Shown here piece after piece: positions 28,380-44,216 of a stretch of DNA of 53,676 bases (position 1 is its first letter; each line of letters begins with the position of its first letter). The notes below the pieces were generated by a model. It ran no database searches. It was not told where the DNA came from and saw only the letters and a program-made list of their open reading frames with translations. The stretch is from a virus, in IMG/VR virus record IMGVR_UViG_3300030101_001806, positions 1 through 53,676 of that record, one strand, 5' to 3'. The translations under genes were made by a program, and so were the position numbers.

Positions 28380-28560
28380 CTTCTGCTTTAGAATTAGAAG
28401 TCTGAGTCATATTCGTTGTTTCTATATCAATCTGCTCAAGTGCTGCAATCAGTGCTTGATTAAATAATAACATTTCTGTAAATTTATTAAAAAAAGCTAA
28501 CTCTGACGCAGGCAATGATGCTATTAATGTTGGTGCTGTTGGCAATCTTATTGTGCTCAC
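28345..28560 (-). CDS. Small helical late protein (71 residues)
   Basis: Not recognised. An N-terminal proline-containing segment precedes one long helix (about 18-48) and an acidic tail. It is coupled to the gp10-like gene by a 4-base overlap at its start. It may act with that tail protein. Confidence 0.55.
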   Translation of the reverse strand: MSTIRLPTAPTLIASLPASELAFFNKFTEMLLFNQALIAALEQIDIETTNMTQTSNSKAEDEATAKGFFFA

Positions 28561-30443
28561 CTTGAACTATCCTCTCTTGCATTGACTCTAAAATCTCCCA
28601 AAGACCAATCATCAGCAGTTCCAGTGCTTGAATATTTAATTGCTATCTGCCTGCCTTTGGCTCTGGTGCTAACTTTTCTTGTTGATGATGTAACTGTGAA
28701 TGGACCTTTTGTAATCTCTGTAGCTTGTGGATATTTTCTTGATTTTAATTCAACAAATAAATTAGTGTCAGAGGTCATAGATGTATCTGGCACGATTTTA
28801 TCAATCATAAACAATCTACTTCCTGTTTCATCTATTTCTACTTCTGATGTTTCAATGTGGCAATTCATAGCTGAACCATCATCACTTGTTCCTGTTTCAT
28901 GATTATAAAGTTTAGCATCTTTATCAAAAGCAAAAGGAACTGTTCTAAAGCCAGTTGCGTCAGACCAAACATTTCTTTGAAGAGATCCAATAGACCAAAC
29001 ATTTTCAGAATAATTAAATGTTACATAGCTGTCTGGTTCTGGATTACTAACTGCAGTATTTGCTGTGCTTACATAAAACCATGTAACCTCATTAAATTTT
29101 TTATTATGCCCAACATGAATTTTATCTTGATATCTTAATTGCATTCTATCAAATACAAAGTGTTGAACAGAACAAGGAAGTTCTTGAATATTGCCATTAT
29201 AAACAAAGAAATTACTTTTACCAATCCAATAGATAGTGCCATCAACACTAATAGTTCCATTGATAGCAACAGCACCACAATTAACACCTAACAATCTAAA
29301 TGAAAATGTAAATGGTGGTCCAGTAAAAGTCATTGCATATGCTGCTTCATCTGTTTGTATAAAAGTCTCGTTTTTAGTTGGTGTTATTGCTACAATTTTA
29401 TTGCCAACTTCTAATCTCTGATCACCTGCAGTATTAGATGCTGTCACTGTAAAATTAGTAAAATCCTCTTGGTCTGAAAATCTAACTAACATTGGATCAA
29501 AAACACCATCAGAAAGATTGTTTGTTCCAGCAACGACTAAATGTCTATCTGGGAAAGATATGCTCAACATCCTATTTTGCGTTGGAACACCAGATGCACC
29601 TCCAAGACTTGAAACAAGGACTGCTCTTTGATTTTCGCCACCAGATGTATCCCAATAATATATTTGACCTAACCTATTATTGGCTAATAAATCGTCTCCC
29701 CAGATCTGCAAAGACCATTGTGTTGCTTCAAGAGAAACGTCTGATGTTGATGTTGTTCTTGCAGTTCCCCAAGTGCTGTCTCCCCAAGCACCAACTCCCC
29801 AACCAAGTGCGGGATCTGAACTTTGAATTCCGACACTTTCAGCATTACCAATAAGATATTTTATATTTAATGTCCCACCACCAGAAGAAACTGTGCTCGA
29901 TGCTGTGTCTGGAGACTCAAAAGAATAGCTGTTATCTGTGATTTTAGTTATCTCATAACCTTCAACTCTATTTAATGTATCAGCAGAGATACCACCTACA
30001 GCAGATGCACTATCTAAAACGACATAATCGCCTGTGGTCGCACCATGAGAAGTATCAGTAACAGTCACTGTTGTCGAGCCACTTGTTGTCGCAAGTGGAT
30101 TACTTAATGATGATGATGTTTTTCTAAGTGGTGTTATATCATACAAAACATCTGCTTTCAATATGTATAAATGTGAGTGTGTTCCTAGAGCAATTCTATC
30201 TGCACCATCATTTGTGCTTCTCCAAAAAATTATTTTTTTAGGTGTTCCTTGAGCTGTGGTCGTTGTGCTTGTTGCTGTTGTTCTAAAATAATCTTCTTGT
30301 TGCCAACCACCTATTTTTTCTGGATATCCATTTACAAATCTTACAAGATTGCCATCTACATAAAATGGTCCATTTTTACCTGCAGCATATTCTGTTATAT
30401 CTTTTACAATACCTGATTTAAATTTTAATAATCTTAATGTCAA
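28557..30443 (-). CDS. Tail nozzle / DNA-stabilisation protein (P22 gp10-like)
   Basis: A 628-residue beta-rich protein whose N-terminus (LKFKSGIVKDITEYAAGKNG, then FYVDGNLVRFVNGYPEKIGGW) is the recognisable start of P22 gp10-type proteins, which plug the portal-adaptor after packaging and form the short tail nozzle. It has repeated WGxxxWG elements near 215-230 and a beta-propeller-like middle. It is somewhat longer than P22 gp10 (472 residues). It lies after the lysozyme in the late block. It is good evidence for podovirus morphology. Confidence 0.82.
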   Translation of the reverse strand: MTLRLLKFKSGIVKDITEYAAGKNGPFYVDGNLVRFVNGYPEKIGGWQQEDYFRTTATSTTTTAQGTPKKIIFWRSTNDGADRIALGTHSHLYILKADVLYDITPLRKTSSSLSNPLATTSGSTTVTVTDTSHGATTGDYVVLDSASAVGGISADTLNRVEGYEITKITDNSYSFESPDTASSTVSSGGGTLNIKYLIGNAESVGIQSSDPALGWGVGAWGDSTWGTARTTSTSDVSLEATQWSLQIWGDDLLANNRLGQIYYWDTSGGENQRAVLVSSLGGASGVPTQNRMLSISFPDRHLVVAGTNNLSDGVFDPMLVRFSDQEDFTNFTVTASNTAGDQRLEVGNKIVAITPTKNETFIQTDEAAYAMTFTGPPFTFSFRLLGVNCGAVAINGTISVDGTIYWIGKSNFFVYNGNIQELPCSVQHFVFDRMQLRYQDKIHVGHNKKFNEVTWFYVSTANTAVSNPEPDSYVTFNYSENVWSIGSLQRNVWSDATGFRTVPFAFDKDAKLYNHETGTSDDGSAMNCHIETSEVEIDETGSRLFMIDKIVPDTSMTSDTNLFVELKSRKYPQATEITKGPFTVTSSTRKVSTRAKGRQIAIKYSSTGTADDWSLGDFRVNAREDSSR

Positions 30444-35003: not shown

Positions 35004-36266
35004 TTATGTTAATGCCCCAGTTGCACCTACCAATATTGTGTTATCACCACTTGCAGCAGAGCAATAATAATTAATCATATAAGTTCCTGCAGTTGTCAAT
35101 GCTGTCAATATATCTGCGTTTATTGCCACACTGGCATGTGCTGATATAGTATGACCACCAGTATTAACTAACATAACTGTTCCAGATTGTCCTTCTGCAG
35201 GATTGCTAAATGTTAATGTAATGTTACCAGATGGTGTGCATTTGAAAAAGTTGGCAGTTGATAAATCAAAATCACCATCATTATCTGTTTCTTGATTACC
35301 TGTACCTCTGCCTGCCACTGTCACGTCATTATTGATAGCTAAAGAAACATTATCTTCCACTGTCATAACTGCAGTGCCATCATATTGTTGAAATATAATA
35401 TCCTTTGCATCAGTAAGTGGTTTTATTACAACATCACTTGATGAATTAGCAATATTTAATTTATTACCAACTAATCCAAGACTTGCATTGTCTTCAACTC
35501 TAATTACTTCTGTGCCATCATATTGTTGAATAACTAAATCATCTGAATCAACCATTGGTTTCATTATAACTTCACCAGCAGTGCCATCTAAATCAAAAGC
35601 AAGTTGATCAGTTCCACCATCTTGTAATTTAATATCACCAGTTGTTGAATTAAGGTGAAGTTCACCAGTTGAGTCAATAGATATAGGTGTTGCTGCAATA
35701 GTTAATCCTGTTGTGCCATCATGTGTAAATGTTACATCGTTGCCAGCACCCATGTTAATTACAGAACTATCTGAATTAAGAGTCAAATCATCTGCAACGA
35801 TTAAATCATCCTCAACAGTTAGATCTGGAACTGCAAGATGAGCAAATGCTTCTTGCACTGTTGCACTGCCACTGCCACCATCCAAGTAAATAACTTTAGC
35901 TGTTCCTGGAGCAATAGTTACCATATCACCACCACCACTCGATGCTTGCTTAATTATTATATTTTGAGATCCACTTGTGGCATTTTCAATAATATGAACT
36001 CTTTTCATATTGTTTGGTGTTATAGTAATAGTACAAGCTGAATCTAATGTACCAGTATATTTGAGATACATAGCTCTACCAGCATCAGAACTTCCATCTG
36101 CTATGGTAGTGGCATGTGCATCAGCATTAGTTGTTATAGCTTCTGTGCCAAACCCTAATGCCTCACCAATTAATTCAAGGTTAGTGTTTGTTGATGTACC
36201 CCACGTTCCTGATTCATCACCAGTTGTTATCTCTTTAAGTCTTAAATTATTTACATAGGTCGCCAT
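35004..36266 (-). CDS. Tail spike/fibre-like protein (420 residues)
   Basis: The N-terminal MATYVNNLRLKEITTGDESG and a GTWGTSTNTNLELIGEALG segment mark a fibre attachment domain widespread in marine phages. The middle is repetitive and beta-solenoid-like, with two copies of a QQYDGT-V--VEDN-SL unit (about 245-265 and 290-315) and many NNDVT/DLTL strands. The C-terminal 90 residues form a compact beta domain. It is probably a trimeric fibre or spike shaft. It overlaps neither neighbour by more than a base. Confidence 0.75.
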   Translation of the reverse strand: MATYVNNLRLKEITTGDESGTWGTSTNTNLELIGEALGFGTEAITTNADAHATTIADGSSDAGRAMYLKYTGTLDSACTITITPNNMKRVHIIENATSGSQNIIIKQASSGGGDMVTIAPGTAKVIYLDGGSGSATVQEAFAHLAVPDLTVEDDLIVADDLTLNSDSSVINMGAGNDVTFTHDGTTGLTIAATPISIDSTGELHLNSTTGDIKLQDGGTDQLAFDLDGTAGEVIMKPMVDSDDLVIQQYDGTEVIRVEDNASLGLVGNKLNIANSSSDVVIKPLTDAKDIIFQQYDGTAVMTVEDNVSLAINNDVTVAGRGTGNQETDNDGDFDLSTANFFKCTPSGNITLTFSNPAEGQSGTVMLVNTGGHTISAHASVAINADILTALTTAGTYMINYYCSAASGDNTILVGATGALT

Positions 36267-37309: not shown

Positions 37310-39187
37310 TTAATTTCCCCATGTTCCATCACCCCAAGTGCCACTTCCCCACTCTTGGTTTACAGTGATACTTTCAGTTCCTGTTGCTCCTGTGCCTGCA
37401 ACTCCTGTTTCTATAACTTGTGAAGATGATACTTCATTTCCAACATCTCCTGTTCCTGAGACGCCAGAAGTTCCAGTTACATTAATTTGTACATTGCCAT
37501 CACCAGATAATCCAAATCCTTCAACTGCACCTGTGCCTGCAACTCCTGTTTCAACTGCATTAAGTTCGAGTGATTCTGTGCCTACTGCTCCTGTTCCTGC
37601 TACTCCTGTCTCGGTTATAGATGCCTGTGGAACTTCTGTACCTATTGCACCTGTGCCTGCAACTCCTGTTTCTGTTATTGTACAATCAACAATTATACTT
37701 TCTGAACCAATAGCACCTGTGCCTGCAACTCCTGTTTCTGTTATAGATGCGAATGGCACTTCTGTACCTATTGCACCTGTGCCTGCAACTCCTGTTTCTG
37801 TTATAGATGCTTCTGGTATCTCTGTTCCTATTGCTCCTGTGCCTGCAATACCTGTAACACCTACATCAGTTCCAGAGAATGTATTATAATTACCAATAGC
37901 ACCTGTTCCTGCAACTCCTGTTTCTGTTATAGTAACATCTGCTTCAATGCTTTCTGTTCCTGTCGCTCCTGTTCCTGCAACACCAACCTCTGTGATAGAT
38001 GCTTCAATACTTTCGTTTCCTGTTGTTCCTGTTCCAGCAACTCCTGTTTCATCTATGGATGCAAATGGTGTTCCTGTTCCTATTGCTCCTGTTCCAGAAA
38101 CTCCTGTTTCATCAAAAACAAAATCAGATTCAACAATTTCTACACCTGTTGTTCCTGTTCCAGCAACACCTGTTGCTACAACTTGTGAGGATGGTATCTC
38201 TGCACCAGCAACACCTGTGCCAGCAACACCAGAAGTTCCAGTTACATTGATTTGGACGTTACCATTGCCTGATACACCAAATGGCTCGACTGCACCTGTT
38301 CCAGCAACACCAACTTCTGTGATACTTGCTTCTAATGTTACAGATGGTGTAAATGATACATTGATAGCACCACCCATTCCCGAATGATATTGGCAATAAT
38401 AATATAAATTATCTGGTGCATCACCACTCACAACGATAGTTGTTTTATATCCACTATCGTCTTTTGTAACACCTGTGGTGTATTCTGAACCAACACCATG
38501 AGTGCCATCAGAAGTTGTTGAAAATCTTACTGGATGACTTGTTGCACCAGACCAATCAAAGACATATGTATTACCTCTAATTAATGATAATGTTGGTTGT
38601 TGTGTTCCATCAATAACATATTTATTACCACTGTCTGTTGATACAACTGTAACTGTATATGTTGTTGGTGATGATGATGTTGTTCCTACTGCACCTGTTC
38701 CTGCTACTCCTGTTCCTGTTATATCAGCACCAAACTCAATACTTTCGTTTCCTACTGCACCTGTGCCTGCTACTCCTGTTTCATCAATTTGTGCTTGAAT
38801 TTCAAATGTGCCTAGAGCACCTGTTCCTGCATTTGAAGAAGCATTTGGTGTTGAACTTTGCACTACTTCTGGTGTAAAAACACCAATTCTTGCATGTCCA
38901 GGAATGCCAATAGAATTTTGACTTTTTTCTATTTTAGATGCAAAAATATTTTGTGTAAATCCCAATAAAATAGTTATATTTTCTGGATCATTATCTGGTC
39001 TTGGATTAAATAATGCAGTTGCGTCTATTACATTTTTTGCAGGTGTAAGTTGAGGATGCTTAGGATCAAACTCTTCTGGCTCAACTCGTAAATTATCATA
39101 AGTTGTTTTTAATTTTGGATAAGGAACTTCAAAGCCAGAAATATCACTTATAGCTTTTGATTTAGATCCTCTTGCATACTTAGCCAT
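37310..39187 (-). CDS. Repeat virion protein with cupredoxin-like domain (625 residues)
   Basis: Residues 1-80 resemble the N-terminal attachment domain of marine phage structural proteins that normally hold a four-Cys zinc finger; here those positions appear as Ser14, Ser17, Glu36 and Glu39. About 175-279 looks like a cupredoxin, with His218 (SHPV), Cys265, His268 and Met271 (CQYHSGM) spaced as in amicyanin. Around it lie about 17 copies of a GVAGTGA(I/V)GTE-type repeat of roughly 20 residues, some within a larger 50-residue duplication. The C-terminus is WGSGTWGDGTWGN. It is probably a long fibrous tail or capsid protein. Copper binding is a prediction only. Confidence 0.75.
   Translation of the reverse strand: MAKYARGSKSKAISDISGFEVPYPKLKTTYDNLRVEPEEFDPKHPQLTPAKNVIDATALFNPRPDNDPENITILLGFTQNIFASKIEKSQNSIGIPGHARIGVFTPEVVQSSTPNASSNAGTGALGTFEIQAQIDETGVAGTGAVGNESIEFGADITGTGVAGTGAVGTTSSSPTTYTVTVVSTDSGNKYVIDGTQQPTLSLIRGNTYVFDWSGATSHPVRFSTTSDGTHGVGSEYTTGVTKDDSGYKTTIVVSGDAPDNLYYYCQYHSGMGGAINVSFTPSVTLEASITEVGVAGTGAVEPFGVSGNGNVQINVTGTSGVAGTGVAGAEIPSSQVVATGVAGTGTTGVEIVESDFVFDETGVSGTGAIGTGTPFASIDETGVAGTGTTGNESIEASITEVGVAGTGATGTESIEADVTITETGVAGTGAIGNYNTFSGTDVGVTGIAGTGAIGTEIPEASITETGVAGTGAIGTEVPFASITETGVAGTGAIGSESIIVDCTITETGVAGTGAIGTEVPQASITETGVAGTGAVGTESLELNAVETGVAGTGAVEGFGLSGDGNVQINVTGTSGVSGTGDVGNEVSSSQVIETGVAGTGATGTESITVNQEWGSGTWGDGTWGN
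37349..38335 (-). repeat. Coding tandem repeats, GVAGTGA-type units
   Basis: About 15 of the 17 repeat units of the 625-residue protein lie here, roughly 60 bases apart; two more are at 38678-38782. The DNA reads repeatedly as CCTGTGCCTGCAACTCCTGT on the plus strand with variants. Two larger blocks (around 37400-37540 and 38160-38310) are diverged copies of each other, containing GNVQINVTGTSGV. The frame stays open throughout, so the repeats serve the protein. Confidence 0.85.
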
Positions 39188-39885
39188 TATCTCAAATTAA
39201 GTCCTGTTGGTTGTAATTTTAAACTGACACCATCATTATCATTTGTTGATGCATACTCAAATGCTTCTTTATACAAATTATTTAATAATGGAAATTTATC
39301 TGGTGCAAATTTTACAGATAATTTAGATGCTAATCCTGCACAAATACATTCTGACCATGTATAAGGAATATCTGTATCTTCATTTGACGCAGTTATATCT
39401 TCCAGTTGATTCATAGACCAATAATTTAATCTGTATGTGTTCCTGTCTGGTGTTTGCCATAAAAAAAGTTTATAAATGTTATTGGATCCAGATTGCCTGC
39501 CTTTATCCAACATATATTGATTTGGTTTGCCTGTATCTGATTTATTTGGTATTTGATTATATTCAGAGATTGTAACTCTATTTATAATAGTATCTGTTCT
39601 TGTTGCGTCTGCACTATCATAAATAACAACATCCAATAAATCTAAAACACCTGCAGGCAGATCATACGAAGATGTATCTGTTGCCAAAGTTAAAGTTCTT
39701 TGTTGTACTGTCCAATAATTAATTCCACGATTAGCCCATTCAGAAAATAATAAATTTAAACTTCTTCTTGCAGAGACTGCTTGATATCCAGTTCTAGTTT
39801 GGATATCAAGACCACATCTCTCGTATGCTTCATTTATTATTTCCTCAACATTAGGTCTAAAAGTAACTGTTCCTGATGTTGCCAT
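39187..39885 (-). CDS. Head-tail adaptor (P22 gp4-like)
   Basis: A 232-residue protein with the layout of P22 gp4-type tail accessory factors: VEEIINEAYERCGLD near residue 13, SARRSLNLLFSEWANRGINYW, then a beta part (TSSYDLPAGVLDLLDVV), LWQTPDRNTYRLNYW and a C-terminal helix with ECICAGLASKLSVKFAPD. Such proteins add to the portal after packaging and form the base of the short tail. The context between capsid and tail genes is right. Confidence 0.8.
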   Translation of the reverse strand: MATSGTVTFRPNVEEIINEAYERCGLDIQTRTGYQAVSARRSLNLLFSEWANRGINYWTVQQRTLTLATDTSSYDLPAGVLDLLDVVIYDSADATRTDTIINRVTISEYNQIPNKSDTGKPNQYMLDKGRQSGSNNIYKLFLWQTPDRNTYRLNYWSMNQLEDITASNEDTDIPYTWSECICAGLASKLSVKFAPDKFPLLNNLYKEAFEYASTNDNDGVSLKLQPTGLNLR

Positions 39886-43817: not shown

Positions 43818-44216
43818 TTAAATGTATGCAGTTACTTCTACTCCCTCAGGCAAGATTGCTGTAATCTCGTCATCATTCAGAAGTAAAAATCTAACATTTT
43901 GAACAACTATCTTTTGACCAGCATATTTTCCATATGTAACTTGGTCACCAATTTTTGGTAATCTAGTCATTCTCCATGACTGACCTGTATCTCTATCTCG
44001 ATATGCCAGTTCACCTATTGCACAAACTGTTCCATGTGCAGTAAGTATTTGCTCATTTTCTTTGACTTTATCAGGCAAAAGGATGCCACCTTTTGTCTTT
44101 GCTTTTATCTCATTTGGTTGAATTAAAATTTTCCAGTTCATTGGTATTGGTAACTGGTGTGAACCAACAGTTGCTTTGCTCAGACTGTCGGTGTATATTG
44201 CATGCTGATGAGACAT
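43818..44216 (-). CDS. GroES/gp31-like co-chaperonin
   Basis: From about residue 26 the protein follows the Cpn10 fold: NWKILIQPNEIKAKTKGGIL (compare bacterial GroES, with its GGIVL mobile loop), then TAHGTVCAIGELAYRD, IGDQVTYGKYAGQKIVVQN and a closing FLLLNDDEITAILPE. The first 25 residues are extra. It would cap the host GroEL and help fold the phage capsid, as T4 gp31 does. It lies next to the scaffold gene, which supports that job. No GroEL gene was seen. Confidence 0.85.
   Translation of the reverse strand: MSHQHAIYTDSLSKATVGSHQLPIPMNWKILIQPNEIKAKTKGGILLPDKVKENEQILTAHGTVCAIGELAYRDRDTGQSWRMTRLPKIGDQVTYGKYAGQKIVVQNVRFLLLNDDEITAILPEGVEVTAYI

Follow-up and report, generated by a model that had tools for sequence, protein, structure and literature searches.

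A cupredoxin-like domain carrying the four predicted ligands of a type-1 copper site was found inside a repeat protein of a marine phage, and its best explanation is a copper-locked beta-sandwich that would be displayed on the tail for host adhesion, a reading to which we assign a probability of roughly one half. The window, i.e., the whole stretch of 53,676 nucleotides that was analyzed (positions 1 to 53,676 of IMG/VR record IMGVR_UViG_3300030101_001806), is on sequence evidence the DNA of a tailed marine phage with Roseobacter phages CRP-901 and CRP-902 among its relatives. The domain is predicted to contain a genuine metal site that is built like those of type-1 copper and kept by selection: that the domain has a functional metal site is very probable, and copper is likely to be the metal concerned.

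The 625-residue protein is encoded on the minus strand (37310..39187), as given by its open reading frame, its translation and the synteny with gp54-gp53-gp52 of CRP-902. Its gene lies directly downstream of an SU10-like head-tail adaptor gene (39187..39885, minus strand; Pfam SU10_adaptor, E 7.5e-10) and is followed by a structural gene of phrog_2941. Homology and synteny thus support a location of the protein on the virion, in the neck or the tail. The order of adaptor gp54, gp53 and gp52 in CRP-902 is the same as in the window; the N-terminal 82 residues of gp53 are 66 percent identical to the window protein, and gp52 reaches 58 percent. The third gene downstream of the repeat gene (35004..36266, minus strand) encodes a neighboring structural-type protein, residues 346-408 of which gave a weak match to Pfam CopC (17.6 bits, E 0.008; cut-off 23.3 bits). 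CopC is a copper-binding fold too, and this match probably reflects a generic beta-sandwich. A GroES-like co-chaperonin is encoded at 43818..44216 (minus strand; phrog_3188, E 6e-15), and the same order is annotated in CRP-902.

Within the repeat gene, the plus strand is interrupted by stops throughout 38351-38665 and the coding frame is that of the minus strand, residues 175-279 mapping exactly to 38665..38351 by their codons. The description of the product as a phage repeat protein was borne out by 17 copies of G[VI][AST]GTG (motif count and mapping; 37388..38776, minus strand), together with tandem DNA arrays of ~60 bp and ~252 bp. The cupredoxin domain itself (residues 171-278; 38354..38677, minus strand), which was delimited from the AlphaFold2 model, the PDB matches of Foldseek and VIA, and the relatives, sits between the second and third repeat copies. 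It is preceded by an N-terminal segment (residues 1-110; 38858..39187, minus strand) that was recognized by alignment in 42 viral loci and matches phrog_28581; this segment is kept in orthologs with and without the cupredoxin, and its AlphaFold model is poor (pLDDT 53). Its residues 1-75, which we take to resemble a zinc ribbon without its cysteines, and residues 114-189 of the product of another gene (28557..30443, minus strand) match complementary halves of phrog_28581 (165 aa), as if, from these alignments, one protein were split over both genes. One Cys is present in the corresponding N-terminal region of an ortholog (L353) in the alignment. At the other end, the protein closes with a EWGSGTWGDGTWGN tail (37313..37354, minus strand), of which a similar form occurs in orthologs. 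The whole protein has no leader or signal peptide and contains two Cys, five His and, besides the starting residue, a single Met, Met271.

The predicted structure places the domain in the cupredoxin superfamily, as a Greek-key beta-sandwich. A 108-residue piece starting at residue 171 was modeled by AlphaFold2 together with 87 relatives, yielding nine strands with a pLDDT of 94.2 and a pTM of 0.87. In this model, numbered from residue 171, His48 stands directly before the fifth strand (50-53), Cys95 closes the penultimate strand (90-95), and His98 and Met101 lie in the loop preceding the last strand (102-107). Such a placement of His, Cys and the His-Met pair is the topology of cupredoxins. 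When the model was compared with the PDB by Foldseek, all 50 of the matches listed were cupredoxins or multicopper oxidases (best E 6.8e-5), including pseudoazurins, rusticyanins, plastocyanins, copper nitrite reductases, small laccases and the cupredoxin AcoP; TM-scores on the query were middling (0.41-0.60). The first of these matches is a pseudoazurin with an engineered amicyanin loop, which has the same loop length as the window domain. By VIA, a Z-score of 9.1 was obtained both for the N-terminal domain of a three-domain copper nitrite reductase (rmsd 2.4 over 90 residues) and for rusticyanin (rmsd 2.9 over 96 residues), which is modestly above the zone of common arrangements, since the note of the tool sets that zone at Z < 8. 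Identity in the structural matches from the PDB was 10-25 percent. The fold is thus common to amicyanin, pseudoazurin, plastocyanin and rusticyanin, blue copper proteins of the kind that serves in photosynthesis and respiration and that led the PDB matches, and the amicyanin loop itself has the ligand order and length of the His...Cys-x2-His-x2-Met arrangement seen here. The cupredoxin fold with an amicyanin-type C-x2-H-x2-M loop, as initially proposed, is therefore upheld by the confidence of the model and by both structural searches.

The ligands assigned in the original prediction to residues 175-279, namely His218, Cys265, His268 and Met271, were all confirmed by codon check. On the minus strand, the predicted first ligand His218 is encoded at 38534..38536, the predicted thiolate ligand Cys265, at a strand end according to the strand limits of the model, at 38393..38395, His268 of the C-x2-H-x2-M loop at 38384..38386 and the predicted axial ligand Met271 at 38375..38377. 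From sequence and model, the residues follow the order His, Cys, His, Met, with the last three at or after the end of the penultimate strand; their position in the secondary structure and the fold match suggest that the four side chains cluster. The C-x2-H-x2-M motif is far from chance, because it arose in only 9 of 200,000 shuffles of the protein, in 2 of them with a His located 38-66 residues upstream. A further histidine, His230 (in DGTHG; 38498..38500, minus strand), was found in 59 of 60 near copies and in 120 of 282 copies over all; in the alignment it is kept only in the near subfamily and stands outside the invariant ligand set.

Conservation was assessed on 416 domain copies (282 unique) from 240 viral-contig loci and 18 chosen named-phage loci. 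The viral-contig loci were the best 80 of 477, the best 80 of 398 and the best 80 of 287 confirmed relatives obtained from IMG/VR with three queries, sets that may overlap; ligand residues were contained in one of the six search patterns in each of the scans giving 477 and 287 relatives and in two patterns in the scan giving 398. The full set of His, Cys, His and Met was present in 233 of the 282 unique copies, with Gln replacing Met in one more, and 48 lacked Cys, the second His and Met, all jointly. Among the unique copies that keep Cys, both His were thus found in 234/234 and Met in 233/234, and the ligand columns rank first to fourth in conservation within the domain, ahead of a Tyr at 97.9 percent. 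As a control, a search pattern free of ligands was held by 82 unique copies, 81 of which carry all four ligands. Moreover, synonymous codons are mixed at these positions: over 264 DNA-distinct copies (a count that omits two further His-Ser copies), CAT/CAC were used 205/59 times for the first His, TGT/TGC 188/76 times for Cys and CAT/CAC 170/94 times for the second His. The idea of a structural remnant is consequently disfavored, the ligands being the four most conserved columns and being kept through synonymous codon change. The invariant columns H48, C95, H98 and M101 of our broad profile A3 are no evidence in this respect because its rows were preselected for all four ligands, which makes the argument circular.

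The ligand-free copies are spread over 66 open frames. A ligand-bearing copy is present as well in 64 of these frames, and nearly all ligand-free copies lie at the same orthologous position of the baseplate wedge protein of cyanophages. Hence, ligand loss represents few events and not 48. Natural replacement of the axial Met by Gln was seen in a phage contig (L258) and in Acidobacteria (L266). The phage case is a cyanophage-type copy on the plus strand, residues 420-531 of a long open frame, with a stellacyanin-like C-H-Y-H-T-G-Q sequence; the axial ligand of stellacyanin is Gln. Pro follows the first His in 336 of the 347 copies counted, while Asn usually stands there in classic blue copper proteins, so that the site may be untypical and its spectroscopy may differ. 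Compared with mononuclear blue copper proteins, the window domain is thus distinguished by this Pro, by the missing signal peptide and by its phage structural context.

The cupredoxin comes and goes among orthologs of the protein. The N-terminal segment was found in 42 viral contigs. The cupredoxin is visible in 12 of them, 26 are complete and lack it, and three are cut; one more ortholog (L315) is cut before the cupredoxin and was counted with the domain, since its contig is that of a cupredoxin-bearing ortholog (L003). As to the possibility, raised at the outset, that the ligands are missing in most relatives, it holds for the domain as a whole, which is absent from 26 of 39 decidable orthologs, but not for the site, as the four ligands are present in 12 of the 12 ortholog domains seen. 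Presence and absence occur in otherwise similar orthologs (L329 vs L345), and the shortest complete ortholog (107 aa) has neither repeats nor domain. Likewise, CRP-902 shares gene order, N-terminal segment, repeats and tail with the window, but its gp53 (308 aa) contains no cupredoxin, despite GVAGTG repeats and a WGNGTWGN tail. By its absence from those 26 of 39 orthologs, the cupredoxin is an accessory module.

The domain was also found in other protein contexts. In phage 023Pt_psg01 (L087:2944-4041), the cupredoxin (residues 21-119) and the head-tail adaptor (residues 125-357) form a single fusion protein with the cupredoxin in front; the adaptor part is 31 percent identical to the window adaptor (E 1e-32), and the next gene encodes a homolog of the N-terminal segment of the window protein. 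Pfam SU10_adaptor gave no match to this fusion at E 0.01; phrog_12985 matches both the fusion and the window adaptor. In other phages, the domain stands behind a T4 gp9/10 N-domain (S-SM1), a T7 fiber N-domain (in a MedDCM podovirus) or a stretch of collagen (P-SSM2). These fusions to adaptor, gp9/10, T7 fiber and collagen-like proteins point to a traveling decoration for neck and tail proteins. A homologous domain with the same four ligands lies in the C-terminal part of cyanophage gp9, the baseplate wedge tail fiber connector (phrog_677). Indeed, phrog_677 matches residues 133-278 of the window protein over profile positions 261-409 of 412 (E 1.9e-16), a match that is not full-length: gp9 has a T4 gp9/10 N-terminal domain, whereas no T4_gp9_10_N was found in the window protein by Pfam scan.

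Family searches named the domain less readily. Pfam Copper-bind (PF00127) scored 14.8 bits, below its curated cut-off of 21.2, plain Pfam and NCBIfam scans returned no family naming the domain, and the amicyanin family TIGR02657 of NCBIfam gave no match when the whole 625-residue protein was scanned at E 0.1. With a profile of the distant subfamily (A4), 29 PDB sequences were retrieved, 28 of them copper proteins, all weakly (best E 0.011). Profile A3 yielded 21 PDB matches with bromodomains first and eight copper proteins, the best of these at E 0.12. Antibodies and capsid proteins were returned by a single-sequence search of the PDB and were rejected; only profile A4 gave mainly copper proteins. 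Weak matches to Pur_ac_phosph_N, NAGLU_N and Nucleoporin_FG2 were discarded as noise from composition or fold. The At5g54830-like domain, with 31 of 88 members at E 0.1 or better, may by sequence be a real distant relative.

Relatives are widespread in marine phages and extend to cells. A relative at E 1e-3 was found in 343 of 50,697 phage records, mostly from phages of Synechococcus and Prochlorococcus; phages of Pelagibacter and of Methylophilales account for a few. Foldseek against viral models gave 63 matches at E 1e-3, among them fibers and baseplate wedge connectors of cyanophages. The view that a copper site on a virion would be striking must accordingly be tempered, because baseplate and fiber proteins of cyanophages frequently carry this same domain. 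Small beta-sandwich proteins of Pithovirus and Marseillevirus showed a structural likeness to the domain (Foldseek ranks 37, 41 and 47). In public bacterial and archaeal genomes, one pattern scan retrieved 52 loci with 61 copies, from Flavobacteriaceae, Acidobacteria, Myxococcales, PS1-clade Alphaproteobacteria and others. HP and C-x2-H-x2-M were present in 58 of the 61, the other three comprising a copy with Gln in place of Met (L266), one with Tyr in place of Cys (L293) and one that is cut (L290); conservation of the first His is no evidence here because the search pattern contained it. Some cellular relatives are short, with a single domain and a lipobox-like or other N-terminal leader, as judged by eye (e.g., L299 and L297), and such small proteins are apparently secreted lipoproteins. 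Those of Flavobacteriaceae have the domain in common with the window protein (HPF...C-x2-H-x2-M), but they stand alone behind a lipobox-like leader and belong to an HPFxIK subfamily, while the window domain belongs to an HPxRFS subfamily. Proteins of ~420-450 aa with two domain copies were observed in PS1-clade/OCS116 and related marine Alphaproteobacteria (L265, L270-L272, L275, L276, L280, L281). In a domain tree (100 columns, 134 rows, 67 of 131 branches open), phage and cellular copies were mixed, with 13 changes between them; at least three of these are forced by well-supported branches, with no direction shown.

From these results, a possible working of the domain can be outlined. The protein, which has no signal peptide, would be synthesized in the cytoplasm of the host, so that the domain would probably be metal-poor at assembly. 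As free copper is scarce in the bacterial cytoplasm, cytoplasmic synthesis without a leader makes copper uptake most likely after lysis, and copper could be taken up from the periplasm or from seawater at that moment. On the neck or tail, the metal would then lock a rigid, outward-facing beta-sandwich, which may act as an exposed adhesion or decoration module or as a fiber stiffener. Ig-like domains on other phages are thought to act as adhesion or decoration modules. Instead, the domain could be nothing but a metal lock, i.e., a spacer or decoration fold shared with cells and stabilized by copper or another thiophilic ion, with no further role in infection. This is in line with the presence or absence of the domain in the similar orthologs L329 and L345, and with the persistence of ligand-free paralogs in cyanophage baseplate proteins, from which the fold appears keepable without the site. 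However, the same copies indicate that the fold needs no metal, and the strict constraint on the ligands elsewhere suggests more than stability. The survival of the fold without metal in ligand-free paralogs is thus a hint that the metal is perhaps more than a stabilizer, and we consider a purely stabilizing role unlikely.

Less likely still, by analogy with what was proposed for iron in fibers, copper on the tail may be offered to a copper- or metal-uptake receptor of the host as a metal Trojan horse. An open-access report describes metal ligands on phage tail proteins in the form of HxH iron-binding tail fibers, at the T4 gp37 tip and in alterophage R22Y, and proposes for marine phages with HxH fiber motifs that the iron is recognized by siderophore receptors (PMC11705849). 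A copper version would agree with the wide spread of the domain in marine phages (the 343 records) and with its occurrence on fiber, baseplate and adaptor proteins. However, these fibers bear another motif and presumably another metal, and no HxH motif was found in the 625-residue protein by motif scan. Besides, the hosts or names of domain-bearing phages span cyanobacteria, Pelagibacter and Methylophilales, and such variety disfavors a single shared receptor. A type-1 site also buries its copper, as is generally known, and would not present it openly.

Rather improbable is a redox role, in which the domain would, during infection, accept or donate single electrons on the surface of the host or in the periplasm, or protect the particle by superoxide dismutation. 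Electron-transfer cupredoxins have this same ligand set, including the weak axial Met or Gln, and among the cellular relatives are small, secreted-looking lipoproteins with one domain, similar in size to the blue copper proteins of electron transfer. Nevertheless, no partner enzyme was found among the phage genes scanned, fixation on a fiber or adaptor is a poor position for electron shuttling, and the domain is dispensable, since orthologs exist without it. Finally, it is very improbable that the domain is an Ig-like beta-sandwich with no functional metal site and with H-C-H-M kept by descent or chance: the clustering of the ligands is deduced from model topology and some paralogs lack the ligand residues, but the ligand columns are exactly the top four in conservation, their codons turn over synonymously, Cys, His and Met are lost jointly, Met is exchanged for Gln, and the chance rate is 2 in 200,000 shuffles for this one protein.

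The tail-displayed, copper-locked module for host adhesion remains our preferred reading. Cupredoxins are already known, and PHROG tail-family profiles contain the domain without naming it; family databases label the proteins that bear it only as tail fiber, baseplate connector or unknown. In the open-licence literature searched, no description of a phage cupredoxin or of a copper-protein domain in phage structural proteins was found, and a passing mention, or one in a subscription journal, is possible. Its wide distribution makes the domain truly interesting, as does the ease of testing it, the site offering a simple, sharp test with four residues, one metal and a visible color. A far-reaching but doubtful extension would be that unrelated marine tailed phages carry loaded type-1 copper on necks, baseplates and fibers, in a mobile domain exchanged between phages and bacteria, that this copper acts in infection through redox chemistry, metal-gated adhesion or receptor mimicry, and that it forms a virus-borne organic copper pool in seawater. 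If copper is bound, common ocean phages would be copper proteins, and the Trojan horse proposed for iron would have its equivalent in copper. Phage infection would then be potentially sensitive to copper chemistry, and viruses would join the list of marine copper ligands.
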